Shown here: positions 3,558 to 17,992 of the stretch, one piece after another
Numbering within the stretch: position 1 is the stretch's first letter
How the letters are laid out: every line of letters starts with the position of its first letter
Assembly: GCA_002690755.1 (NCBI GenBank)
Contig: NZFT01000026.1
Span: 7,691-26,001, forward strand
Reading direction: 5' to 3'
Source: Phycisphaerae bacterium
GTDB taxonomy: Bacteria; Planctomycetota; Phycisphaerae; Phycisphaerales; SM1A02
DNA: 18,311 bases
Position numbers and translations under genes: made by a program
The notes under the pieces: generated by a model
Databases searched by the model: none
What the model was told of the DNA's origin: nothing
The model's input: the letters and a program-made list of their open reading frames with translations, nothing else

Positions 3558-3890
3558 TCATCGGTCCGGAAGCGGGTTGAACTTGATGCGGAAGCCCTTG
3601 AGGAGGCCCGAATCACCGCCGTTCACGGCCTCGGGAGGGATGATTTCGCGGTGCACCCCGTCAAGATCCGGCTCGCGGCGATCCTGGATCGTCTCGATCA
3701 GGGCGTCGAGATCCCCGGAAACACCCTCCACGAGCATGCAGACCGTTCCATCGGGCTCGTTCCGGACCCAGCCCGCGATCGGCCGCCCGACGGCGACCTC
3801 GGACACCAGGGCCCGAAAGCCCACCCCCTGAACACGGCCGAGAAAGATCACCCGCTCCCGCCGGTGTTCCGCCTGCGGCGGATCACTCAC
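3558..3890 (-). CDS. acyP: Acylphosphatase
   Basis: A 110-residue acylphosphatase (EC 3.6.1.7), a small cytoplasmic enzyme that hydrolyses carboxyl-phosphate bonds such as those of acetyl phosphate or 1,3-bisphosphoglycerate. The signature GRVQGVGFR is at 18-26, giving catalytic Arg26. GWVRN at 40-44 supplies the second catalytic residue, Asn44. The DG-V--EG segment typical of the family follows. Length is close to the usual 90-100 residues, with about 10 extra at each end. The start is GTG at 3890, whose sequence GTGA overlaps the yebC stop; GGAAGAGG lies 7 nt upstream inside yebC, so translation is probably coupled. Acylphosphatase has no obvious functional link to YebC; the pairing may only reflect operon packing. 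Confidence 0.95.
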   Translation of the reverse strand: MSDPPQAEHRRERVIFLGRVQGVGFRALVSEVAVGRPIAGWVRNEPDGTVCMLVEGVSGDLDALIETIQDRREPDLDGVHREIIPPEAVNGGDSGLLKGFRIKFNPLPDR

Positions 3891-4624
3891 GCGTAGGCCT
3901 CTTCCGGAATCTCGGCATTGTGATGCACCTGCTGGACGTCGTCCTGGTCCTCGAGGGTGTCGATCAGCCGGAGAAACTTCTTCGCCGCCGACACGTCGAG
4001 CTTCACGGTGGTGCCCGGGGTGTAGGTCAGCTCCGCCTGTTCGATCTCGAATCCCGCCGCGACCAGCGCGTCCTTCACGCCGATGAAGTCCGTCGGCTCG
4101 GTGGAGACGGTCACCAGCCCGTCCTCGTTCGCGACGTCCTTCGCACCGGCCTCGAGCGCCGCTTCGATCACCTCGTCCTCGTCCGCCTTCGATGCGTCGA
4201 GGTGGATGACCCCTTCATGGGTGAATCCGAACGCGACCGAGTTCTGCGTCCCGAGGTTGCCGCCTCCCTTGTCGAAGATCGAACGGATCTCCGGAGCCGT
4301 CTTGTTCGCGTTGCTCTGGAGACAGTCCGCGAGAATCGCGACGCCGCCGGGTCCGTAGCCCTCGTATCGCGCCGGCTCGTAGGTCTCTCCTTCGATCTCG
4401 CCGGTGCCCTTCTTGATCGCCTTTTCGATCGTGTCCTTGGGCATGTTCACGGCCTTCGCATCATCGATGGCATAGCGAAGGGTGGTGTTGAACTTCGGGT
4501 CGCCGCCGCCGTCGCGAGCGGCGACGATGATCGCGCGACTGCAGTTGCTCCACTGCTTGCTCCGCTTCGAGTCGACGCGGGCCTTGCGATGCTTGATGTT
4601 GGCCCATTTGCTGTGACCGGCCAT
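3887..4624 (-). CDS. yebC: YebC/PmpR (TACO1-like) family protein
   Basis: A 245-residue member of the YebC/PmpR/TACO1 family, first described as transcriptional regulators and more recently linked to translation and ribosome-stalling relief. The diagnostic N-terminus MAGHSKWANIKHRK is intact. It is followed by the family's conserved NMPKDTIEKAIKKGTG and YEGYGPGGVA motifs and the SVAFGF segment. Length matches the usual 240-250. An in-frame ATG at 4693 would add 23 residues not found in the family, so I place the start at 4624. The gene starts 75 bp after the TPR lipoprotein and overlaps acyP by 3 bp. Its position downstream of nusA-infB-rbfA fits a role in gene expression, but the exact role here cannot be read from sequence. 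Confidence 0.96.
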   Translation of the reverse strand: MAGHSKWANIKHRKARVDSKRSKQWSNCSRAIIVAARDGGGDPKFNTTLRYAIDDAKAVNMPKDTIEKAIKKGTGEIEGETYEPARYEGYGPGGVAILADCLQSNANKTAPEIRSIFDKGGGNLGTQNSVAFGFTHEGVIHLDASKADEDEVIEAALEAGAKDVANEDGLVTVSTEPTDFIGVKDALVAAGFEIEQAELTYTPGTTVKLDVSAAKKFLRLIDTLEDQDDVQQVHHNAEIPEEAYA

Positions 4625-4699
4625 CTGTATGTTCCGTGGGGTGCTGTCGGGTTTGCGTGTCCGAACCGACGGGACGATCCCGCGGCCCGCCATTGTGAT

Positions 4700-7600
4700 T
4701 CATTCCGAGGCCGGCTGCACGCCCTCGCCCGCTTCCGACCAGGTCGGGGTGACCGGGGGGGAGCGATCCTCCGCGATCGCCGAGAGGCGAGCTTCGGCCG
4801 CCCGCTCCCAGCGACCGTCGATCCGGTCGTGCATCGACCGCGGGTCGGCCAGCACCCGGCCCCAGACCGCACGCTGGAAGTCCGCGAACGCGGCCAGTCG
4901 GCGTGCGAGGGATTCGTTCCTCAGCGTCGCTTCCGTGATCCGACTCCAGGCGGCGACCGCATCGGTCCTGCGACCGGCCCGCCAGGAGGCGTCACCGTAG
5001 TGCAGCAGCACCTCCGCGGAGAGCGGTCGACCGGCGGCGGATCTCGCCCGGAGCGAACGGCCGACGAGCGCCAGCCCGCCGCCGGGGTCCGCGGCGTCGT
5101 TCCGGCCCTGCAGGTACCGGCACCATCCGAGGGAATCGAGCACGCTCGGATTGGTGGCATCCATTTCGTACGCGCGATCGAGCATCATCGACGCACGTTC
5201 TCGATCGGCCTCGCTTCCCTCGAGGAGCGCGAATCCCAGATTGTTGAACGTCGCCGCGTCGACCTCGGGATCGGCGACCGCCTCTTCAAGCAGCGAGATC
5301 GCCAGTTCGGCCCGGTCGAGCAGCGAGGCATCTCCGGAAACCGCGGCGAGGATCTCCCACGTCGTCCCCCCCACCTCGTAGATCGCCGCCCAGTCGAGCC
5401 CGGCGTCGGTTCCGTCCTCGAGCATCGAGACCACGAGTTCCGACGATCCACCCGCGGCCATCGCGACCGCGACCGCGGTTCGCGGCAGGCCACCACCGGA
5501 CTCGGTGCCCGCATCGGGCGATCGCAAGGCGAACCGCAGCAGATCCGCGGCCGCCGTCGGATCGACGTCGAAGCGCGAGCGTCCCACGGCGCTCCATTCC
5601 CGGTCGAGAAACGTGGCGGCGGCGGCGGGTCGAAGGTCTTCGAAGATCTCCCACCGCGCTTCGCCATCCCGGGTGCGAACCACCGCGGCGGCGACGTCCA
5701 CGTCGACCGGCGTGTTCGTCGCGCGGTACCAGTTCGTCACACGGTCCACGATCCGTCTGCCCCGCTGATCGGGCAGCGTCGCCGCCACCATCGCGAGTCG
5801 GCGTCGTTGACGTGGCGCGAGCACGGACGGATCCAGATCCGAAACGACGGGCAGCAGTCGATCGGTCGCGGCCGAATCCTCCATTCCAATCGCCCGCTCC
5901 AACGCGTCGATGTCGCGCGAAACGGTCATCGGACGGTGACCCAGACGAATCCCTGCGAGCCGATCACGTTCCGCGTCCTTCTCGGGGCGATCCGCAAGCA
6001 GCAACTCGAGACGCCTTCGCGGATGACCGGACAGGGCCCCCGCGGACTCGATCCGGAGCGCTTCCAGAAGCCCGGCCCGATTCTCGTCCGACTGTCGCAG
6101 GGCGAATACGGCGTCCTGAAGCACGGGATCCGCCGGATGCCGATCGAGCAGCGATTCGAGTCGGCGCCGACCATTGGCGATGCGACCGGTCGCCTGCCAC
6201 ACGCCGACGAGTCTCACCAGGACCTCCTCCCGCGCCTCCGGATTCTCGAGCATGCCGTCGAGCAGACGCGAAGCCGTCGAAAGGTCACCGGACGCGATCG
6301 CCCGGTCGGCTTCGACGAGCGGCCGGAACGCCGGCTCCTCGGCCACCATCCCGACCACGATTCCGATCTCGGAATCCATTTCGACCTCACCCCCGAGCCG
6401 ACGCACCGCACGAGCAAGCCCGATCCGCGTCGACCACCGTCGATCTCCCAGCCGAATCGCCCGAGCGTACGCCGCCGCCGTGTCGAGCTCCCGGCCTCGG
6501 AATCGAGCCGCGGCGGCACCGAAGGCGGCCCAGCATTCGCCGGCGCTCGGCGCGGTCACGACGAGATTCGTCGCACCGGCGAGGGCGAGCTCGGGTTCAC
6601 CCGCGACCAGCAATCCTTCGATCCGGGCCGCCTCGACGGATGCGTCGAACGGTGCATCCGGAACCGCCAGCACGCCCGCGGGATCGGAGACGTCTGCGGC
6701 GAGCCGGATCCGCACCACGCGTCGGACCGGATCGTCGATCGACGCTCCGGCGGCGGCCAGTGCATCCGCGGCGAGGCCGGGTCTTTCGTACCGACGCAGC
6801 AGTTCAGCGCGAATCAGCGAAGTGTCCGTCGCACTCTCGACCAGTCGCTCGTCCAGCAGGGCGTCCAACAGGGTCTGATCACGCCAGGGCGCGGAGATCA
6901 GTCGATCGACCGCGGCGTCCAGCAATTCGGTCGAATCCACCACCCCCGACGCCATCACGACTCCGGATCTCGGTCCCCCGGGAATCGCGGCGTCGACGAG
7001 TGCGACTCGAAGCTCGGCCGGTACCGCGGCCGCATCCATCCGACCGATGATCTCCGCGGCACGCTTCGGATCGAGGGAGACCAGGAGGGTCGACGCCGCG
7101 AGATCGTCCGGAGTCGCGAGAATCCGTTCCACCAGCGCCTCCCGGAGTTCCGGGAGCGCCACGCCGCCGTCACGGAGCAACGTGAACATCTCACGATCGA
7201 CCCCCGTCGGCACGACATTCGATTCCAGAAGCATCTCCTGCATCGTCGCGTCGCGTCCAAGCGATGCCGACGACCAGATCAGCCGCGGGCGCAGCACCGC
7301 GGGATCGATCCCACCCTGCAGCGCCGCCGATCGCCAGCGTTCGTCCGCGAGAATCGGACGACCACGCTTCGCGGCGTCGTCGCCCGCCAGCAGCAGGTAC
7401 TCCGCCCTGACCGCCGCCGGGAGATCACCGAGCAATCTTCCGTCGTCCTCCACCAGCACCGCCTCGCGAAGTTCCGAAGCGGCATCCGCCCCCTCGCTCG
7501 CCTCGATCGCACGCATGAGGTCCCGTACCGCGTCCGCCGCGATCCAGGGTCTCCGATCGACTTCGCGGAGATACCGGGCGGCGACCACCGCCAGCGCCTC

Positions 7601-8221
7601 CTCGGAGCGGCGACGACGGGCCAGTTCACGACCGAGGGATCGAAGATCACGATCGTTCGCGGATCCCCGAGCCGCGAGTCTTCGACGGATCGCCAGCGCG
7701 TCCGCGGCGTTTCCAATCTCGTCGAACGCGATCGCGAGCACTCGCAAGGCGGTGTCACCAGCCCCGTCTCGGACCGCTGATTCAAGCGGTTGAATCGCAT
7801 CCCCCGGACGCCCCGCCGCGAGCAGCAGTCGCCCGCGGACGTACCCGCGGATCGCGCGGGTCGAAACCGGACCCGATTCCGCCTCGGGCGGGTCGAGGCG
7901 GATGATCGCCGGATCGAAATGAGCCTCCGCGATCGACCGGACCGTCCGTCCCGCGACGAAGGTCGTCGCCTCCTCCGCGGCGAGCATCGGTGGCGGTGGC
8001 AGGACTCGGACGACCTTGGGGGGTCGCTCGATCTCCTCGATGGCGGCGGCTCGAAGTCGGGATCGGCGATCGACGTGCTCGATCGAGATCGTCTCACCGG
8101 AGCGAGGCGCCTGCGAGGACGTGATGCATCCGCTGGCGGCAAGGCACCCGAGTCCAAGCAGGAGGACTCGTGGGATGGTGTGGATCCGGCAGATCGGTTC
8201 GAGCCAGCCCGGCCCGAACAT
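4700..8221 (-). CDS. Large TPR-like repeat lipoprotein
   Basis: A 1173-residue predicted exported protein. The N-terminus has a hydrophobic stretch (about 19-31) ending in LAASGC, so Cys32 is a plausible lipidation site, although the lipobox is not a strong one. Almost all of the rest is Ala/Leu/Arg/Asp/Glu-rich helix with the 30-40 residue rhythm of degenerate TPR or HEAT-like repeats. The clearest TPR-like pair is near the C-terminus (about 985-1045), around FNNLGFALLEGS and LDSLGWCRYLQGRNDAA. A Pro-rich segment (about 65-77) separates the anchor from the repeats. The start is ATG at 8221, overlapping the stop of the upstream gene as TGATG; a TTG one codon earlier is less likely. I recognise no enzyme domain. 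It may be a periplasmic scaffold, but that is inference. Confidence 0.85.
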   Translation of the reverse strand: MFGPGWLEPICRIHTIPRVLLLGLGCLAASGCITSSQAPRSGETISIEHVDRRSRLRAAAIEEIERPPKVVRVLPPPPMLAAEEATTFVAGRTVRSIAEAHFDPAIIRLDPPEAESGPVSTRAIRGYVRGRLLLAAGRPGDAIQPLESAVRDGAGDTALRVLAIAFDEIGNAADALAIRRRLAARGSANDRDLRSLGRELARRRRSEEALAVVAARYLREVDRRPWIAADAVRDLMRAIEASEGADAASELREAVLVEDDGRLLGDLPAAVRAEYLLLAGDDAAKRGRPILADERWRSAALQGGIDPAVLRPRLIWSSASLGRDATMQEMLLESNVVPTGVDREMFTLLRDGGVALPELREALVERILATPDDLAASTLLVSLDPKRAAEIIGRMDAAAVPAELRVALVDAAIPGGPRSGVVMASGVVDSTELLDAAVDRLISAPWRDQTLLDALLDERLVESATDTSLIRAELLRRYERPGLAADALAAAGASIDDPVRRVVRIRLAADVSDPAGVLAVPDAPFDASVEAARIEGLLVAGEPELALAGATNLVVTAPSAGECWAAFGAAAARFRGRELDTAAAYARAIRLGDRRWSTRIGLARAVRRLGGEVEMDSEIGIVVGMVAEEPAFRPLVEADRAIASGDLSTASRLLDGMLENPEAREEVLVRLVGVWQATGRIANGRRRLESLLDRHPADPVLQDAVFALRQSDENRAGLLEALRIESAGALSGHPRRRLELLLADRPEKDAERDRLAGIRLGHRPMTVSRDIDALERAIGMEDSAATDRLLPVVSDLDPSVLAPRQRRRLAMVAATLPDQRGRRIVDRVTNWYRATNTPVDVDVAAAVVRTRDGEARWEIFEDLRPAAAATFLDREWSAVGRSRFDVDPTAAADLLRFALRSPDAGTESGGGLPRTAVAVAMAAGGSSELVVSMLEDGTDAGLDWAAIYEVGGTTWEILAAVSGDASLLDRAELAISLLEEAVADPEVDAATFNNLGFALLEGSEADRERASMMLDRAYEMDATNPSVLDSLGWCRYLQGRNDAADPGGGLALVGRSLRARSAAGRPLSAEVLLHYGDASWRAGRRTDAVAAWSRITEATLRNESLARRLAAFADFQRAVWGRVLADPRSMHDRIDGRWERAAEARLSAIAEDRSPPVTPTWSEAGEGVQPASE

Positions 8222-9198
8222 CAACCGCCCCGTTTCCGGGTCGATGCCTTCTTCGCCGGCGCCTTCTTCGTCGAAGCCTTCTTGGTTGCAGCCTTCCTGG
8301 TTGCGGTCTTCTTCGCCGGCGCCTTCTTGGCTGCGGCCTTCTTCGCCGGCGTCTTCTTCGCGGGCGTCTTCTTGGTCGCAGCCTTCTTCACCGGCGTCTT
8401 CTTCGCCGCAGGCTTCTTGACGACGGACTTCTTGGCCGGTGCCTTCCTGGCCGCAGGCTTCCGAGGGACTTCCGGTGCGGCTGCGGCGGTGTCTTCGGCG
8501 TCCGCCGCCACCGGTTCATCGGGTACGCCGGCCGGCTTCGAGCCACGACGGCGACGGGAGAGTTTCGTCATCGTCCCATCCGACCAGGCCACGTCCACCG
8601 CGGCCTGCAACGCCTCGATGGCCGCCGGTCCTTCGTCGGCCTTGACGGCGGATGCCAGCCAGGTCGCAAGAGTCTCGTGCTCCACGACCTCGTCGATCAC
8701 GCCCAGTTCGTGGAAGAGCAGCGAAAGCTGTTCGTCGGCCGGCATCGCATGAACGTCGAACGAGAGCCTGAGCAGTCGACCCGAGACGAAGGGATTGATG
8801 CCGTCGAGCGATTCGATCTCCGCCTTCGCGTCCCGCTTCCCCTTCTCCCGGACGTAGTCGAGAGAGATCTCGTGTCGTCGCAGGTAGATGGCGTGCAGCG
8901 AACGCTTCAGCCCGCCGAGGCGTTCCTCGAGGCGGGGATATCGCTTGCCGATCGCCGGCGCGAGTTCGTGCGGAAGCGACACGCGGATCTCGTTGACGTC
9001 GACCCTCGCCTCCATCAACTTCGTCATCGCGGTGGAGGCGTGCTCGGTGCTCGCCTCCCAGAGCATCCATGAGTGGATCAGAACCGAGATCGGATCCTCG
9101 GTGGAGACGGTCTCCGGCAACGGCGACTCCGTCGCGGCGACTCGATGCTTCTTCAGAAGTGCCGAGAGCTTCGTCGGCTTGGCCCATTTGGTCTTCAC
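8221..9198 (-). CDS. HhH-GPD (endonuclease III fold)-like protein fused to a histone H1-like Lys/Ala-rich tail
   Basis: A 325-residue two-part protein. Residues about 30-212 resemble the HhH-GPD fold of DNA glycosylases. [17 protein letters not shown] (131-147) lines up without gaps with the helix-hairpin-helix of endonuclease III (LPGVGRKTANVVLNTAF), and continuing that alignment places Asp155 at the catalytic Asp. The catalytic Lys position is Phe137. There is no C-terminal four-cysteine Fe-S motif. An Arg cluster (SRRRRGSK, about 216-223) and an acidic Ala-rich linker lead to 80 residues (246-325) built from sixteen five-residue units, mostly K-K-x-P-A or K-K-A-x-x, like bacterial H1-like DNA-binding tails. 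The start is GTG at 9198 with GAGGTG 5 nt upstream. It lies 15 bp after rbfA and overlaps the TPR lipoprotein start by 1 nt. A nucleoid-binding protein or a Lys-independent glycosylase are both possible. Confidence 0.82.
8224..8463 (-). repeat. In-frame 15-bp coding repeat (sixteen K/R-rich pentapeptides)
   Basis: This is the DNA encoding residues 246-325 of the HhH-GPD/H1-like fusion. Each 15-bp unit starts with two basic codons, mostly AAG AAG, followed by three codons drawn from Ala, Pro, Thr, Ser and Val. The register holds for all sixteen units with no insertion or deletion. Third-base and residue variation shows that the copies are old or under selection rather than a fresh expansion. 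Confidence 0.9.
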
Positions 9199-9213: not shown

Positions 9214-9705
9214 TCAGTGGTCGGGCGAGAACTCGCCGTCCCGATCGGGGTTCGACGCTTCGGCGTCGACGGGACCATCCCGTCGATCCGGATCCGCAGG
9301 ATCCGTCTCCGTCGCGTCATCTCGCTCCGCGGAATCCATCCCGTCGCGAATCGCCGCATCAAGCGCGGCTTCATCCTTCATCGAAGTGTCGAGCCGGAAG
9401 ATGAGACGTGGAACGCGGCGAAGCGACGTCTCATCACGGACGAGTTTGCGGAACAGTCCATCGGCGCTTCGAAGGCCAGAGAGCACTCGCGTCTCGTACT
9501 TGTCGGGAAGCACCGAGATCCCGATCCAGGCCGTCAGGAGATCGGCGGAGAGCTCGACCTTGGTCACCGAGACGAGCCCGCGGATCCGGGGATCCGCGAA
9601 GCCTCGGATGATCCGCTCCTGAATCACACGAGACAACACGGAACTGACCTGCTTGGGTCGGATCCGCTCCGTGTGCTGGGTCTCCTGGAATCGACGGCGC
9701 GCCAT
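9214..9705 (-). CDS. rbfA: 30S ribosome-binding factor RbfA
   Basis: A 163-residue RbfA, a cytoplasmic factor that binds the 30S subunit during late maturation of 16S rRNA. The KH-like core is recognisable at about 18-115: a helix with SRVIQERIIRGFADPRI, then the strand VSVTKVELSADLLTAWIGISVL, and RVPRLIFRLDTSM near its end, all in the expected order. RbfA is usually about 110-135 residues; the extra length is an Asp/Glu-rich tail (about 118-163). The ATG at 9705 has GAGGGA 5 nt upstream. That Shine-Dalgarno overlaps the infB stop codon, and the intergenic gap is 9 bp, so the two genes are probably translationally coupled. Confidence 0.93.
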   Translation of the reverse strand: MARRRFQETQHTERIRPKQVSSVLSRVIQERIIRGFADPRIRGLVSVTKVELSADLLTAWIGISVLPDKYETRVLSGLRSADGLFRKLVRDETSLRRVPRLIFRLDTSMKDEAALDAAIRDGMDSAERDDATETDPADPDRRDGPVDAEASNPDRDGEFSPDH

Positions 9706-9710
9706 GAGAT

Positions 9711-9716
9711 TCCCTC
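9711..9716 (-). promoter_or_regulatory. rbfA Shine-Dalgarno overlapping the infB stop codon
   Basis: GAGGGA lies 5 nt before the rbfA ATG. Its first two bases are the last two of the infB TGA, so a ribosome terminating on infB covers the rbfA initiation site. Confidence 0.75.
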
Positions 9717-12537
9717 AAAGACTCCGGGCCACGGCGATCGTCTTGTAGCACTCGAGCACGTCGCCTTCCTTGATGTCGTCGTAGCCATCGATCTTCATGC
9801 CGCATTCCATGCCACTCTTGACTTCCTTGGCGTCGTCCTTGAATCGCTTGAGCTGGTCGAGCCGACGATCCTTCTCGACGACGATGCCGTCGCGGGTGAC
9901 TCGGATCTGGGCATTGCGTTCGACCACGCCGTCGGTGACGTAGCAACCGGCGATCGCCCCGACCTTGGAGACCCTGAAGACCTCCTTGACCTCGGCATGC
10001 CCGAGGACCTCGAGCTTGAGCTCGGGATCGAGCAGTCCGGAGGCGGCCTTCTCGACGTCGTCGGTGATGTCGTAGATGACGTCGTAGAGCCGGATGTCGA
10101 CGCCCTTGCTCTCGGCGAGCTGCCTCGCCTTCGCGGTGGTGGTCACGTTGAAGCCGATCACGATCGATCCCGTCGCTTCCGCGAGCGTCACATCGCTCTC
10201 GTTGATGCCGCCCACCGCGGAGTGCTTGACAGAGACCTTCACCTCGTCGGAGCCGATCTTGCCGAGCACCGCGCGAAGCGTCTCGACCGAGCCCTGCACG
10301 TCGCCCTTGACCACGAGCGGGAGATCCTTCTTCTTCCCCTCCTCGAGGTGGTCGAAGATGTTGTCGAGGGTGATCTTCGGTGCGGCGAGCTCCCGCTCGC
10401 GTTCGAGCCGACGACGCTCCTCGGCGGCGGCTTCCGCCTCCTTCAGCGAGTCGACGACGAAGAACCGGTCGCCGGCGTCCGGAAGCTGGTCGATGCCGCT
10501 GATCGCCACCGGGGTCGAGGGACCCGCGGAGGCGATGCGATCACCGTGATCGTTGACGATGTCGCGGACCCGGCCGTAACCCCGGCCGGTCACGATGAAG
10601 TCGCCCTTGTTGAGCCTGCCTTCCTGAACCAGCATCCGGGCCACCGGACCGCGGCCCTCTTCGACCTGGGCCTCGAGCACGGTGCCTTCCGCGTTGCCGT
10701 CGAAGTCACCCTTGAGTTCGAGCAGGTCGGCCTGATAGTCGAGAATGTCGAGCAGGTCCTGAACGCCGGTGCCGTCGATCGCACTGGTGCGGATGACTTC
10801 GGTGCCTCCGCCCCACTCCGTCGGGTTGAGTTCGTGTTCCGCGAGCTGACCGAGGATCCGCTGGATGTTGGCATCCGTGGCTTCGGCCTTGTCGATCTTG
10901 TTCAACGCGACGACCAGCGGCACGCCCGCCGCCTTGGAGTGACTGATCGACTCCGCGGTCTGCGGCATGATGCCGTCGTCCGCGGCGACCACCAGCACCA
11001 CCACGTCCGTGACCTTCGCACCACGGGCCCGCATCGCGGTGAACGCCTCGTGGCCCGGGGTGTCGATGAATGTGACGACCCGCTCCTTCTCGCCGGCCTT
11101 CACCGGAACCTGGAACGCGCTCGTCGCCTGGGTGATGCCACCGGCCTCACCGTCGGCGACGTTGGTCTGTCGGATTCGATCCAACAGGGAAGTCTTGCCG
11201 TGATCCACATGGCCGAGGATCGTGACGATCGGGCTTCGCCCCCGTTCGTCGCCCCGCTCCCGGGCCATGAACCGTTCTTCGATGACTTCGGCCGCGGTCT
11301 TCGCCTCCTCGACCTGCAGCTCGATCTCGTACTCCATCATGATCTCGATGGCCCGTTCGGTCTCGATCGCGGAGTTGATCGTCGCCGGAATCCCTTCGAG
11401 GAAGAGCTTCTTGACGATCTCGGCACCCTTCACGCCGGTCGCGGCGGAAAGGTCTTTGATGGTGATCGGCTCCGAGATCTTCACGGGTCCGGTGGGCTTC
11501 ACCGGCACCGAGGGCCCGCGGCGGCCGCCGCCACGACCACGCGAACGGTCCTGACGATGCTGGCGGAAGAATCCCTGTGAGTGCTTCAACGCCTGATCAC
11601 GCTCGGCGAGATCCTGGGCACGCCAGGGCTGGAACGCCTTGTTCTCCCCCATGCCACCACCGGCGCGGCCCGTTCGGCCGTCGCCACCCTGTCGCCGTGG
11701 ACTGCGCCCCTTGCCGGCCGCACCACCACCGCCGCCGCCTCGTCGTCCGTCGCCCATTTCACCACCGCCGGCGCCACCACCTCGGCGGGGACCGCCCGTG
11801 GTCATCATGCCGTCGTTCGGCTGCTGTCGCGGCCGCGGGGGCGGAAGCTTGTCGGGTTCCTCGACCCGGATCACCTTCGGTCCACTGAGTGCAACCTTGG
11901 TCGGCTGCTCGAGCTTCGGGCCGACCGGACTCACGGAGTCGGGTCGGCTGGGAACGTTCATCACGGGCCCGGGCTCGGTGCCGGTCGTCGGTGTGTCCGG
12001 CGCATCCGTTCCCGGCGCCGAGGCGGCGATTCCCGGCGGGTCGACCTGCTCGGAAACGGGATCCTGGCCCGGTTCGGCGATGGGTACGACGTCGGGTCCG
12101 TCCAGCGCGTCGACCGACGGTTTCTCCGCCGCCGCCGCCGCCGCCGCCGCGGCTGCGGCCGCCGCCGCGGCGACCTCGGCGATCGGCGGCATGCTGGGAT
12201 CCTCGACGGTTTCCACCTTCTTCACGGGCGCCGGCGTCTCGACCTTCGGCTCCTCCGGTGCCGCGACCTTCTTGGTGGCCTTCTTCGCCTTGGCCCGGGC
12301 CTTCGCCACATCGACCTTGGCCGCGGTCTCCACGGCGGTTGTCGACGCTTCGGCCGCGACACTGAACCACTCCCGCACCGTGTGCGACAGCCCCACCGAG
12401 ACCGCCGACATGTGGTTGGTGATGTCGGGGATGTCTTCGGCCACGCACTTGGCGATGATGTCCTTGCTGGACACGCCGAGTTCCTTGGCGAGCGTGTGCA
12501 CTCTGAGAGTGGTCGTCTTCTTCTTCTTCGTGGCCAC
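9715..12537 (-). CDS. infB: Translation initiation factor IF-2
   Basis: A 940-residue IF-2, the GTPase that brings initiator tRNA to the 30S subunit and promotes subunit joining. In order: an IF2_N helical domain (about 8-57, [18 protein letters not shown]); a long Ala/Pro/Gly/Arg-rich linker (about 60-345) with 15 consecutive Ala at 123-137 and Gly/Arg-rich blocks; a second IF2_N-like segment (about 350-415); then the G domain. G1 is GHVDHGKTS (Lys448), G3 is DTPGH (492-496) and G4 is NKID (546-549), all intact. C-terminal domains II-IV are complete and end in [20 protein letters not shown]. The switch I segment reads [10 protein letters not shown] instead of the usual GGITQHIGAY. The start is GTG at 12537 with GAGGAG 6 nt upstream. 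The gene lies 141 bp after nusA and 9 bp before rbfA. Confidence 0.97.
12127..12171 (-). repeat. GCN codon run encoding 15 consecutive alanines in IF-2
   Basis: Fifteen alanine codons in a row, with mixed third positions, in the disordered N-terminal linker of infB (residues 123-137). It is flanked by Val and Glu codons. The mixed codons argue against pure trinucleotide slippage. Confidence 0.9.
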
Positions 12538-12678: not shown

Positions 12679-14139
12679 TCACGCCTCGCCGCCCCCGGGA
12701 CGCGGCGTCTCCGCCGGGGCATCCCCACCACCACCAAGCAGGGCGTCGGCCGAGGCTTCCGCCGCGGCATCCGCCTCCGTCGCCTCGGGCGTTTCCGTCG
12801 CATCCGTCGCATCCGTCGCGTCGGCGGCCGCGGCCGGCTCGGGTGCCGAGCCACCACCCAGGATCGACGCCGCCGAGGATTCCGCGTCGGCGTCGGTCGC
12901 CGACAGGATGGCGTCCGCCGACTGCTCTTCGGAGGCCTTCGCCTCGGCTTCGGCCTTCGCCTTCTCCTGTTCCTCCGAGATCTCGTGGGCCCGCGTCGCG
13001 GCCCGCTCGACGATGGTCGCCGCGAGATCCTCGGGAAGCTCCAGGTCGTCGACGAGGACGCCCTCGCCCACCTCTTCGATGTCGAAGACGCTGATCATGC
13101 CGAGCGCCCCCATCCGATCGAGCATCTCTTCCGTGACGCCCTCGACGCTGCGAACCGTGCTCTCGAGATTCTCAAGGCCCTTCGCGAACTCGTCCGGAGT
13201 GAGGATGTCGATGTCCCAGCCGGTCAACCGGGCGGCGAGCCGCACGTTCTGACCTCGACGGCCGATGGCCAGCGAAAGCTGATCCTCTCGAACGATGATC
13301 GTGGCCCGGCCGAGTTCGAAGCAGAGGCTGACCTCTTCGACCTCCGCGGGCTTCAACGCATTGGCGATGAGGACCTGACTGGATTCGTTCCATCGGACGA
13401 TGTCGATCTTCTCACCGTTGAGTTCGTCGACGATGTTCCGAATGCGGCTTCCGCGGACCCCGACGCACGCACCGACCGCATCGACCTTCGAATCGATCGA
13501 GCTGACCGCGAGCTTCGTTCGGAAGCCGGCCTCTCGGGCCATCGCCTTGATTTCGATCACCCGCTCGCTGACCTCGGGCACTTCCTGCTCGAAGAGACGC
13601 TGGATGAAGTCCGGATGCGAGCGGCTGAGGACGATCTTGACCTGATTGCCGGCGTCACGGACGTCGAGGATCAGGCAGCGGACGCGGTCACCCGGATGGA
13701 ACTGTTCTCCCGGGATCTGCTCGCTGCGCGGCATGAAACCCTCGGCCCGATCGATCTGCACGACCAGCGCTCCGCCCTCGTACCGCTGCGCGGCACCGGT
13801 CACGACCTCGCCCTGACGCTTCGCGAACTCCTCGAGGAGACTGTTGCGCTCGTCCTCGCGGAATCGCTGGATCATCACCTGCTTCGCGGTCTGGGCGGGA
13901 ATGCGGCCCATCGCGGCGAGCGGGATCTCCTCGATGCCTTCACCTTCGACGTTCCGCCAGAGGCGGATCGCACCGCTGAGGCGGTCCATCTGACATCCGA
14001 ATTCCTCGGTGTCGAGCGAGTTGAAGTGCTTCCGGGCCGCACTGACCATCGCCTGCTCGAGATCCTCGATGAGGAGCTCCCGATCGATGTTCCGGTCACG
14101 TGCGATGGAGTCGAGGATTCGAAGGGTTTCTGGATTCAT
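12679..14139 (-). CDS. nusA: Transcription termination/antitermination factor NusA
   Basis: A 486-residue NusA, the RNA polymerase-associated factor that modulates pausing, termination and antitermination. In order: the NusA N-terminal domain (1-105), S1 (about 110-175), KH1 (about 205-255, GxxG as GVRG at 227-230) and KH2 (about 285-312, GRRG at 293-296). A helix-hairpin-helix-like segment (about 330-382) resembles one acidic repeat of longer NusA proteins. The last 100 residues are an acidic Ala-rich tail with three related motifs: SADAIL (407), SAASILGGG (422) and SADALLGGGG (463), plus a short ATDATDAT run. The start is the ATG at 14139; no clear Shine-Dalgarno precedes it. rimP, the usual upstream neighbour, is absent; a long structured leader occupies the space instead. 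Confidence 0.97.
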   Translation of the reverse strand: MNPETLRILDSIARDRNIDRELLIEDLEQAMVSAARKHFNSLDTEEFGCQMDRLSGAIRLWRNVEGEGIEEIPLAAMGRIPAQTAKQVMIQRFREDERNSLLEEFAKRQGEVVTGAAQRYEGGALVVQIDRAEGFMPRSEQIPGEQFHPGDRVRCLILDVRDAGNQVKIVLSRSHPDFIQRLFEQEVPEVSERVIEIKAMAREAGFRTKLAVSSIDSKVDAVGACVGVRGSRIRNIVDELNGEKIDIVRWNESSQVLIANALKPAEVEEVSLCFELGRATIIVREDQLSLAIGRRGQNVRLAARLTGWDIDILTPDEFAKGLENLESTVRSVEGVTEEMLDRMGALGMISVFDIEEVGEGVLVDDLELPEDLAATIVERAATRAHEISEEQEKAKAEAEAKASEEQSADAILSATDADAESSAASILGGGSAPEPAAAADATDATDATETPEATEADAAAEASADALLGGGGDAPAETPRPGGGEA

Positions 14140-14707: not shown

Positions 14708-15763
14708 CTACGATGCCAAATCGACGGCTACGTCCGGGTTTTTTCCGGAGTTTGCGGAATCCACGATGCGTAAGGCCCGCTTTCCCCGGTGCTGGCCGAG
14801 CGTCGCTTCGAACTTCGGACGCCCCGCGATGCTCACCGCGACCGGCTGATCCGCCCTTCGATCCGTGGTGATGACGTCCCCGACTTCCAGGCGGCCGAGA
14901 TCGGCCAGCGTCATGGAGGTTTCGGCCAGCGTCGCCTCGACCTGAACCGTCGAATCGTGCAGCTTGGAGACGATCGCCTGCTCCGCACCATGGATGCCGG
15001 CCTCGCCCGCGACGAACCAGTTCTCGGTGCTGAGATCCTCCATCACCGGCTCGATCACGTTGTAGGGAATGCAGAGGCTCATGGTTCCCACCCCGTCACC
15101 GACCCGGCTTCCGAGGCGGATCTCGAACCCGATCATGACCACGACTTCGTTCGGCGGAACGATCTCGACCAGCTGCGGGTTCGATTCCATCGCCGAGATC
15201 CCGAAGTCGATCTGCTTGACGCCGGACCACGCCTCGGTGAGGGCGTTCATGCCGAGGTCGAGCACCTGCCGCATCAACCTGGATTCGATCCCGGTGAGCG
15301 GACGCTTCGGGACGAGGAGACTCTGGTTCGTCCCGCCGAGCAGCCGCTCGACCAGCGGATACACCACGAGTGGACTGATGTCCATGCAGATCTGCCCCCC
15401 GAGCGGCGGGCAGTCGAGCAGGGTGAAGCAGGTCGGATTCGGCAGGCTTCCGATGAATTCCGCGTAGGTCATCTGCTCGGCACTGGCGACCCGGACTTCC
15501 ACGATCGAGCGGATGAAACCGGATATCTGCGCGCCGAACCCGCGGGCGAAGGCCTCGTGCAGGGTCCGCAGGGTCCGCATCTGATCCTTGCCGATCCGCT
15601 CCGGACGCTTGAAGTCGTAGACGCGGATCTCGACCTTCTCGTGATCCCTTCGGAAACGGGAGAAGATCCGAGCGGGTCGTTGCTCTTCGCGAAGATCCCC
15701 CGACTCGACGGCTTCCATGAGGGTGTCGACGTCGGACTGATCAAGCATCTCGGAATCGGACAT
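14708..15763 (-). CDS. fliM: Flagellar motor switch protein FliM
   Basis: A 351-residue FliM, the C-ring protein that binds CheY-P and sets the direction of flagellar rotation. The N-terminal CheY-binding/EIDxLL-type segment is visible as MLDQSDVDTLMEAV (6-19). The CheC-like middle domain follows, with FGAQISGFIRSIVEV, GLNP-like SLPNPTCF and YPLVERLLGG. The C-terminal SpoA (surface-presentation) domain covers about the last 80 residues. I use the ATG at 15763 because GGAGAAG lies 8 nt upstream and the next in-frame start, 15835, adds 24 Arg/Pro-rich residues foreign to the family. No other flagellar gene is in the window. It lies 568 bp upstream of nusA in the same direction and is divergent from the DsbD gene. 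Confidence 0.95.
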   Translation of the reverse strand: MSDSEMLDQSDVDTLMEAVESGDLREEQRPARIFSRFRRDHEKVEIRVYDFKRPERIGKDQMRTLRTLHEAFARGFGAQISGFIRSIVEVRVASAEQMTYAEFIGSLPNPTCFTLLDCPPLGGQICMDISPLVVYPLVERLLGGTNQSLLVPKRPLTGIESRLMRQVLDLGMNALTEAWSGVKQIDFGISAMESNPQLVEIVPPNEVVVMIGFEIRLGSRVGDGVGTMSLCIPYNVIEPVMEDLSTENWFVAGEAGIHGAEQAIVSKLHDSTVQVEATLAETSMTLADLGRLEVGDVITTDRRADQPVAVSIAGRPKFEATLGQHRGKRALRIVDSANSGKNPDVAVDLAS

Positions 15764-16033
15764 GGGAAACGCTTCTCCGGTGCGGCGGTCGGGGCTTCGC
15801 GTCGGCCTCCTGCCCACGCGAGGGCCACCCCGCACTGTTGAATCATCGGCCGTCGGTTCGGCCGGGCTTGAGGTTCGCCCCCGGAGAAGGCCTCGGGACG
15901 CCGATTCGCTCGCCGAGATCCCGAAACCGGAGCCCGACCTCGATTATCGGTGCGGAATCAAGGGGCCGAATCGAGCGTCCGGGTTCGAATCCGACCGCGT
16001 CCCCGCCCGGGAACGTCGTACCATTTCACGTCC
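15764..16033. promoter_or_regulatory. Divergent intergenic region between fliM and the dsbD-like gene
   Basis: 270 bp that must hold start signals for both directions. The only element I can point to is TACCAT at 16019-16024, a -10-like hexamer 9 nt before the dsbD-like ATG. No Shine-Dalgarno precedes that ATG, so a leaderless or nearly leaderless transcript is possible. I see no convincing -35 box or operator. Confidence 0.4.
15772..15778 (-). promoter_or_regulatory. fliM Shine-Dalgarno that decides the 15763 start
   Basis: GGAGAAG lies 8 nt before the ATG at 15763. It supports the shorter FliM rather than the in-frame start at 15835. Confidence 0.75.
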
Positions 16034-17992
16034 ATGCGACACCGAACCAGCATCCTCGAACGACTCCTGGCGATTCTCGCGGCGACCCTGTTCGGAACCA
16101 TCGTTCTGACCGGTTCGCCCGCCCTCGCCCAATTCGACTTCGGCATCACTGGAAACGACGACCCGGGGTTCAACGATTCCCGCGACCGGGTCGGCACCGA
16201 GATGCTCCTGTCCCGGAACTCGGCGGCCCCCGGCGGCGACGTCGTCGTCGCGGTGATCCTCGACATGGAAGCCGGATGGCACGTCTGGCCCGGGCCGGGA
16301 TCCGCGCCCGATGATCTCGCCGAATTCGACGGGGCGATCCGGACCACGATCGCGATCCCTTCGGCGGAGGTCGCGCCGTTCACGATTCACGACGGATTCT
16401 CGACCTGGCCGGAAATCCACGGCGTGCTTGCCGATCTCGGCGATGGCCCGATCAAGTACGCGGTTTATGAAGGACGGGTCGCGATCCTCGTGCCCGTCAC
16501 CGTGGACGAGGACGCCGCACCGGGCACTTATGACCTCACCATCGACGTGGGATTCCAGACCTGCGACGACCGGAACTGCCTCGCCCCCGCCGAAGTCTCG
16601 CTGACCCGGTCCCTCGAGATCTCGACCTCAGGCGGCGGTGGCGCGACCAATGAGGACGATCCGGCGTTCGCGGCGTTCGATCCGGCGATCTTCGCCGCGA
16701 TCCGGGGGGGTGCGGTCGCCGCGGACATCATCGAATTCGACGTGTTCGGACTGGCCTTCTCGGTCGACGCCGCGGGCACCGGCGGTTTCCTCCTGCTGCT
16801 CCTGGTCGCCGCGGTCGGCGGCCTGCTCCTGAATCTCACCCCCTGCGTCCTCCCGGTCATCCCCCTGAAGATCATGGGCCTCAGCGCCGTGGCGGAGAAT
16901 CGCCGCCGGTGCTTCACCCTCGGCGTCTCGATGTCGGTGGGCGTCATCTTCTTCTGGATGGTGCTGGGTGGGATGATCGCCGGTCTGAAGAGCTTCCAGT
17001 CGATCAGCGAGCTCTTCCAGTATCCGATCTTCACGATCAGCGTCGGCGCGATCATCGTGGTGATGGCGATCGGCATGGCGGGGTTCTTCACGATCCAGCT
17101 GCCGGCCCGGTTCTACGCGGTCCAGACGAGCCACGACACCCTCGGCGGCTCCTTCGTGTTCGGCATCATGACCGCGATCCTCTCGACCCCGTGCACCGCG
17201 CCGTTGATGGGCGCCGCGGCCGCCTGGGCGACGACCCAGTCGCCCGGAACGGTGCTCACGGTGTTCGGTTCGATCGGCACCGGCATGGCGATCCCCTACC
17301 TCGTGCTCAGTGCCTTCCCCGATCTGGTGAAGAAGATGCCGCGGACGGGCAAGGCGAGCGAGGTCGTCAAGCAGGTGATGGGCCTGCTGCTCCTCGCCGC
17401 CGGCATCTACTTCGTGGGCAGCGGGATCTCCGGCCTGACCGTCGTTCCGGGCGAACCCCCCAGTCGCCTCTACTGGTGGTTCGTGACCGCGGCCGCCCTG
17501 GCCTCCGGCGTCTGGCTGCTCGTCCAGACCTGGCGGATCGCGGATCGATGGCCCCCGCGGATCGTCTTCACCATCGTGGGCGGCTTCATCACGTCGCTTT
17601 CCATCTGGGTCGGCCTGACCATGACCGCGAAGGGCCCGATCGACTGGATCTATTACACCCCCGAACGCTTCGCGACCGCGGTCGCCGAGGACAAGGTGGT
17701 GGTCCTCGACTTCACCGCGGAATGGTGCCTGAACTGCAAGACGCTCGAAGCCACGGTCCTGCAGACCGAAGGCGTCGTCGCCGCGCTCGATCGTCCCGAC
17801 GTGGTGCCCATGAAGATCGACCTCACCGGCGACAACCCGGACGGCCGGGCGAAGCTGATCGAAGCCGCCCGCCGCACGATTCCGCTCCTCGTCGTCTACG
17901 GGCGGGATGGGGCCGAGATCTGGAAGAGCGACGCCTACACGCCGAGCCAGGTCCTCGACGCGATCGCGGAGGCAGGCCCCGAAGGCCCCTGA
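16034..17992 (+). CDS. dsbD: DsbD-type thiol:disulfide interchange protein
   Basis: A 652-residue protein that should carry reducing electrons from cytoplasmic thioredoxin across the inner membrane to periplasmic thiol partners. It has the full three-part layout. The signal peptide ends ALA-Q (cleavage after Ala32). The N-terminal periplasmic domain (about 45-200) has the Cys pair in TCDDRNC (Cys177, Cys182). The CcdA-like membrane domain (about 250-540) has conserved Cys271 (LTPCVLPVIPLK) and Cys387 (STPCTAP). The C-terminal periplasmic thioredoxin domain has WCLNC (Cys565, Cys568) and a likely cis-Pro in TIPLLVVYG. All six redox cysteines are present. The start is the ATG at 16034, because the signal peptide begins there; an in-frame GTG at 15950 adds 28 Arg-rich residues. 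There is no clear Shine-Dalgarno. Substrates may include cytochrome c maturation or DsbC-like proteins, which are not in this window. Confidence 0.93.
   Translation: MRHRTSILERLLAILAATLFGTIVLTGSPALAQFDFGITGNDDPGFNDSRDRVGTEMLLSRNSAAPGGDVVVAVILDMEAGWHVWPGPGSAPDDLAEFDGAIRTTIAIPSAEVAPFTIHDGFSTWPEIHGVLADLGDGPIKYAVYEGRVAILVPVTVDEDAAPGTYDLTIDVGFQTCDDRNCLAPAEVSLTRSLEISTSGGGGATNEDDPAFAAFDPAIFAAIRGGAVAADIIEFDVFGLAFSVDAAGTGGFLLLLLVAAVGGLLLNLTPCVLPVIPLKIMGLSAVAENRRRCFTLGVSMSVGVIFFWMVLGGMIAGLKSFQSISELFQYPIFTISVGAIIVVMAIGMAGFFTIQLPARFYAVQTSHDTLGGSFVFGIMTAILSTPCTAPLMGAAAAWATTQSPGTVLTVFGSIGTGMAIPYLVLSAFPDLVKKMPRTGKASEVVKQVMGLLLLAAGIYFVGSGISGLTVVPGEPPSRLYWWFVTAAALASGVWLLVQTWRIADRWPPRIVFTIVGGFITSLSIWVGLTMTAKGPIDWIYYTPERFATAVAEDKVVVLDFTAEWCLNCKTLEATVLQTEGVVAALDRPDVVPMKIDLTGDNPDGRAKLIEAARRTIPLLVVYGRDGAEIWKSDAYTPSQVLDAIAEAGPEGP

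Follow-up and report, generated by a model that had tools for sequence, protein, structure and literature searches.

Gene X, its neighbours and its distribution

The window, by which we mean the whole stretch of 18,311 nucleotides analysed from a Phycisphaerae bacterium, carries on its minus strand a run of genes read in one direction, in the order nusA-infB-rbfA-X-TPR gene-yebC. Gene X lies between RbfA (9214-9705) and a TPR protein (4700-8224), so that the infB-rbfA cluster context given in the preliminary description of this DNA is correct. The features are:

3887..4693, minus strand: yebC/TACO1-family gene (PF01709, E 1.4e-53)
4700..8224, minus strand: TPR protein; by eye its start is lipoprotein-like, and it overlaps gene X at that gene's end
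8221..9198, minus strand: gene X (325 aa, GTG start), a predicted EndoIII-fold protein with a basic C-terminal tail
8224..8553, minus strand: basic K/A/P-rich tail of gene X, residues 216-325, net charge +31
8554..9102, minus strand: HhH-GPD (endonuclease III)-like domain of gene X, residues ~33-215, net charge -9
8734..8736, minus strand: Asp155 of gene X, at the position of endonuclease III's catalytic Asp
8776..8808, minus strand: helix-hairpin-helix remnant of gene X, residues 131-141, with Phe137 on the catalytic Lys position
8983..9000, minus strand: DxNxxR motif of gene X (D67-V-N69-E-I-R72), the family's most conserved feature
9214..9705, minus strand: rbfA (PF02033, E 1.7e-19), 15 nt upstream of gene X
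9715..12537, minus strand: infB (IF-2; TIGR00487, E 5e-209)
12679..14139, minus strand: nusA (TIGR01953, E 3e-103)

The protein consists of a short basic start, the core (33-215) and then the tail (216-325). For the domain, dN/dS was 0.045-0.32 in 20 of 21 pairs formed from the window, five same-genus relatives and one relative from a nearby genus, and the remaining pair was saturated; gene X is a real gene on which purifying selection acts. The window was scanned for known RNA families and tRNAs, and none were found. Two further ORFs, both named by eye, flank the nusA-yebC cluster: a FliM-like ORF (14708-15835, minus strand) and a DsbD-like ORF ending in a thioredoxin-type part (15950-17992, plus strand).

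A match to gene X was present in 95 of 101 relatives (77/77 of the good genomes), in all 120 class genomes (108/108 good ones) and in 147 of 197 phylum genomes (96/121 good ones), where the matches may include ordinary EndoIII. The counts of residues given below refer to 166 same-class loci, labelled family (30), order (38) or class (98), six of the 38 order-labelled loci also belonging to the window's family. They were drawn from 68 of the 95 matching relatives' genomes and 97 of the 101 same-class genomes (G316, G339, G344 and G371 being absent from the set), along with a second copy, L122. The loci were picked with a profile containing DxNxxR, which biases the set toward the motif; Nth proteins without the motif were still found.

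The gene directly upstream on the same strand was rbfA at 29/30 family, 38/38 order and 97/98 class loci (164/166); at the two others, X begins 111 and 163 nt from the contig start. Neighbours were called from profile or phmmer matches in the fetched stretch, and small genes within the gaps (largest 290 nt) fall outside these calls. The distance between rbfA and X was exactly -4 nt at 23/29 family, 23/38 order and 26/97 class loci, or 46/67 in the window's order; in the window itself the gap is +15 nt, with no overlap. Outside the class, rbfA was upstream at 12 of 32 phylum loci, the 32 coming from 31 of the 133 matching same-phylum genomes, 16 of them the best-scoring. We recognised yebC in 30 loci, always downstream and on the same strand, with many loci reaching too little DNA to tell; the TPR gene intervenes in the window. 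One assembly (G381) holds two rbfA-linked copies of gene X, L122 and L109, one of them near a contig start, and this pair represents either a duplication or contamination.

We considered gene X as the organism's only EndoIII. This is ruled out for the relatives: PF00730 matches occurred in 61/61 of them, with two or more such proteins besides gene X in 57/61, and these other proteins are putatively Nth and MutY. No PF00730 match fell at the rbfA-linked locus in the 59 genomes shared with the relatives' search. The window's own genome (88.8% complete) yielded one PF00730 protein, MutY-like by eye, and the Nth profile added only gene X. Assembly incompleteness likely accounts for the single protein, because four same-genus genomes have two PF00730 matches each.

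Relationship of the core to endonuclease III

The preliminary description had aligned residues 131-158 with endonuclease III free of gaps. We compared an alignment of 27 relatives (A1) with one of six canonical same-class Nth proteins (A3) using hhalign, and obtained a probability of 98.3%, an E of 2.2e-14 and a score of 96.8 over 182 columns. The alignment runs without gaps across residues 90-197 of the window protein; it pairs F137 with the catalytic Lys and D155 with the catalytic Asp, L131, F137, D155 and L158 all standing where they had been numbered. Ten column-shuffled profiles scored 11.3-18.6 and the reversed profile 12.9, and since these controls are flat the alignment is not a chance one. 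In the reverse search the Nth profile picked up the gene X locus in its own genome (E 9e-8). A search of the PDB with the A1 profile gave D. radiodurans EndoIII-1 (E 7e-7) and 8-oxoguanine glycosylase (1e-3), and the NCBIfam DR2438 model (NF053634) matched 23 of the 27 A1 members, the best at 1.2e-10, far under its cut-off. Relatives with the Fe-S pattern (L060, L068, L136, L166) matched that model near end to end (E 6e-12 to 8e-20). These profiles show that residues ~30-200 of gene X are homologous to endonuclease III, the DR2438 type being nearest.

Single gene X sequences are too weak to reveal this homology, and profiles are needed. The window protein alone reached NF053634 at E 0.08, far under the 400-bit cut-off; its sole PDB match was a CsoR chain (E 0.47), and against Pfam it gave the HC2 model in the tail and an extensin and nothing else. 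Searched as single sequences, neither the window protein nor any of the 27 A1 members matched Pfam HhH-GPD (PF00730), the members being searched at E 1. AlphaFold run twice from 8 sequences gave mean pLDDT values of 45 and 48, too low for use, and Foldseek on the first of these models returned 4 matches, none with E < 0.001; the absent match on a model of such low pLDDT is no evidence against the EndoIII fold. Scanning viral contigs with A1 gave 24 pattern matches and 0 relatives. The Fe-S-bearing relative L060 matched 13 plasmid records at 26-28% identity, and among the matches listed the annotation was mostly endonuclease III or DNA lyase; these are consistent with EndoIII and say nothing about gene X.

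Apart from the start Met, the best conserved columns at the 166 loci are R72 (166/166), D67 and N69 (163/166 each) and P153 (162/166). The residues of the EndoIII active site fared differently. Catalytic Lys was found at 0/166 loci, its position being occupied by F (79), Y (76), H (5), N (2), V (2), C (1) or W (1), with F or Y at 67/68 loci of the window's order. The catalytic Asp position is D in 143/166, and otherwise T (11), N (7), S (3), E (1) or H (1); thus Asp was lost at 23/166 loci across the class and retained at 67/68 in the window's order. Thr, Asn, Ser and Asp all cap helix N-termini well. Since the replacements at this position are mainly such residues, it may be retained for helix capping and not for chemistry; the 67/68 of the order are the main fact favouring residual catalysis there. 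After the Asp position, Thr stands in 15/166 and His in 4/166. Both glycines of the GxG phosphate-binding hairpin were present in 3/166 (the window protein reads GIN), and at the wedge position, where Nth has Gln, Q occurs in 2/166, E in 63, D in 59 and N in 22. The window protein contains 0 cysteines and is therefore without 4Fe-4S ligands, as had been described; the Fe-S cysteine pattern occurs in 6/166 same-class loci. Net charge of the core had medians of -6, -7 and -7 for the family, order and class sets and was at or below 0 in 162/166. The same columns of the six canonical Nth proteins (which with L122 form the paralog row of the residue table) show Lys in 6/6, Asp in 6/6 and R72 in 0/6, and their cores are mostly basic, with a median of +6.5 and one of them at 0.

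From 198 rows (L185 and L189-L193 omitted) a quick tree was built with the Asp column removed and with SH-aLRT support only. In it, some Fe-S bearers fall with the outgroups and others at the base of the class, and Asp presence or absence requires at least 9 changes on this tree, phylum rows included, with losses at several places. Six same-class, rbfA-linked loci (L136, L147, L152, L156, L166, L168) keep the Fe-S cysteine pattern with catalytic Lys gone, and such members may be intermediate stages in the enzyme's decay.

The basic tail

The basic, H1-like character assigned to the C-terminus was borne out by a match to Pfam HC2 (PF07382) of 50.2 bits against a cut-off of 40, in a region of low complexity. 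Its length somewhat exceeds the 80 residues given: counted from residue 216 the tail has 110 residues and a net charge of +31, and counted from 237 it has 89 residues and +32. The DNA encoding it overlaps tandem repeats of 15/45 bp.

Tail length ranged from 2 to 298 residues across 164 of the 166 loci (L021 and L078 excluded). L021 was left out of tail counts and of the charge correlation, the border between domain and tail being judged misplaced. A tail of at least 30 residues with a net charge of at least +8 was found at 27/29 family, 25/38 order, 65/98 class and 23/32 phylum loci; one shorter than 25 residues was found at 1/29, 10/38, 18/98 and 1/32, respectively, or 29/165 same-class loci. 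Because length and charge vary in this way among loci, the tail is a recurrent, variable addition and not the defining part of the gene X family. At one locus only (L078, G363:C20), gene X continues in frame past a short Lys-rich stretch into sequence that is HisG-like by eye, which could be a fusion or a missing stop. We also examined an electrostatic pairing of the acidic RbfA end with the tail of X, and rejected it, the charges being uncorrelated (rho -0.11, p 0.16, n=175 loci).

Eight HC2 matches were found in the window's own genome, three of them over the cut-off including gene X, and we read AKK-rich ORFs at four of the remaining seven. L217 (G000:C102) in this genome is another lysine-rich fusion, an ORF whose long N-terminal part is AKK/PAKK-rich and whose end is, by eye, DksA/TraR-type zinc-finger-like. 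L219 and L221 (G000:C125 and G000:C79) are near-identical loci for a lysine/arginine-repeat protein, one copy having ambiguous bases, and may represent a single gene assembled twice. At L215 and L216 (G000:C48 and G000:C64) HC2 was over the Pfam cut-off and the AKK filter gave no ORF.

Function of gene X and comparison with known systems

To excise a base, an enzyme must have a pocket and a wedge, a hairpin that grips phosphate, and a basic cleft. The sequences show that gene X no longer has the catalytic Lys or the Fe-S cluster; the GxG hairpin and the DNA wedge are gone too, and several lineages are also without the catalytic Asp. As most parts for base excision are gone and the charge of the core is reversed, and as the framework, DxNxxR and the place behind rbfA are kept, non-enzymatic re-use is the economical reading. 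We therefore favour, at a probability of roughly one half, a reading in which the EndoIII fold of gene X would have left base excision and would now serve as an accessory protein linked to translation, its tail binding nucleic acid. The X protein would be produced together and in step with RbfA and would act on the translation side; its acidic core would bind a protein partner, with DxNxxR either making that contact or keeping the fold together, and the lysine-rich tail, being disordered, would anchor it electrostatically on rRNA or DNA. Such a protein would neither cut DNA nor sense lesions. We infer the ribosome or RNA as its target from gene order only; YebC, encoded farther down the cluster, is a translation factor according to an excerpt of PMC12234827. 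A bolder form, which we offer tentatively, has a base-excision enzyme turned into a core factor of ribosome assembly or translation working with RbfA, class-wide and in related lineages of the phylum, its core charge reversed and a basic tail for rRNA added.

Several observations count against the favoured reading. Retention of Asp155 in 67/68 order loci would be expected had some catalysis persisted. Linkage to rbfA counts less for a role in translation inasmuch as shared regulation or inheritance alone can keep synteny, and the 12/32 phylum loci with rbfA upstream and the 15 nt without overlap in the window both speak against a translation link. So do the likeness of the tail to nucleoid proteins, together with the other AKK-rich ORFs of the genome, and the RbfA tail charge, which does not track that of X. 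Two rivals are live, nucleoid binding and a monofunctional activity surviving in the window's order.

The first of these, fairly unlikely in our estimation, is a non-enzymatic nucleoid or DNA-architecture protein, in which the tail would cover DNA in the manner of Hc2 or H1, with the EndoIII fold recognising either a partner or a structure in the DNA. The HC2 match, the net +31 and the further AKK-rich ORFs argue for it, as does the finding, in the portion of PMC9268735 used here, that DrEndoIII3, an EndoIII without detectable activity, still binds damaged DNA strongly. However, the core is acidic with the hairpin and wedge lost, gene X sits behind rbfA, and tails of fewer than 25 residues occur in 10/38 order and 18/98 class loci. 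The nucleoid protein of the preliminary description is conceivable through its tail, and loses ground at the 29/165 loci where that tail is nearly gone; the lesion-sensing DNA module also proposed is weakened by the wedge Gln (2/166), by GxG (3/166) and by the core charge (at or below 0 in 162/166).

Unlikely, in our view, is an active monofunctional DNA glycosylase, with Asp155 catalytic, an aromatic residue at the Lys position and a tail that speeds target search as in ROS1. Mig.Mth, MBD4 and AlkA have aromatic residues at the catalytic-Lys position, and in the window's order Asp155 and F/Y at 137 are each found at 67/68 loci; 23/27 A1 members weakly match a model named for a monofunctional DNA glycosylase. 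DrEndoIII1 is mostly a monofunctional glycosylase in the excerpted text of PMC10523315, and the Lys-rich region has its precedent in ROS1 (PMC3526269, in part). Yet gene, motif and synteny persist where the Asp is gone (23/166 class loci), GxG survives in 3/166, the core is acidic, and other HhH-GPD proteins are present in 61/61 relatives searched. Of the monofunctional residue pattern originally described, Asp without Lys stands, and an active enzyme behind it is weakened by the class-wide counts. That X is a passive passenger, its fold kept for stability alone and its place behind rbfA inherited without a functional link, would suit a tail of low complexity and very variable length but is highly improbable against a dN/dS of 0.045-0.32, a match in 120/120 genomes and R72 in 166/166.

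Gene X thus has a match in every class genome (120/120), beside a ribosome-maturation gene; in the parts drawn upon of the open-access literature on planctomycetes, EndoIII and nucleoid proteins, no description of the family was found. It presents a DNA-repair fold losing Fe-S, Lys, hairpin, charge and sometimes Asp stepwise, in a protein still under selection, and it cautions that the fold alone should not name such genes DNA glycosylases. If the link to the ribosome is true, gene X would be a lineage-specific translation factor of unexpected origin.

Among known systems, the canonical same-class Nth proteins (L172-L177) are homologous to gene X over 182 columns; they show the Fe-S pattern in 5/6 (a contig end truncates L172) and stand beside rbfA in 0/6. 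D. radiodurans EndoIII-1 (DR2438; PDB 4unf, 8a5f; NF053634), the best solved match of the A1 profile, carries a GDWDAI segment where the gene X family has DxNxxR; compared with it, gene X has no Fe-S cysteines, catalytic Lys or GxG, and has an acidic core, a basic tail and linkage to rbfA. D. radiodurans EndoIII-3, as far as the excerpt of PMC9268735 goes, resembles gene X in having the EndoIII fold with the Thr-His near the Asp replaced and, unlike gene X, retains Lys, Asp and the Fe-S cluster, with high affinity for damaged DNA; no EndoIII activity was detectable. Non-catalytic parts of glycosylases are reviewed in PMC9266487, and condensed planctomycete nucleoids and chlamydial H1-like proteins are discussed in PMC3177640, both cited here from extracts. 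The chlamydial Hc2 and HC2-like proteins (PF07382) share the K/A/P-rich composition of the gene X tail; gene X, in contrast, has the HC2-like part as a tail only, variable or near absent in relatives, and the likeness is compositional. The preliminary description knew of no described protein with its pairing, but an HhH-GPD domain joined to a lysine-rich region is known from the plant 5-methylcytosine glycosylases ROS1 and DEMETER (PMC3526269, in the section used), where the short lysine-rich region of ROS1 gives strong non-specific DNA binding and sliding. Unlike gene X, these are active, eukaryotic, multidomain enzymes with the lysine-rich region at the N-terminus.
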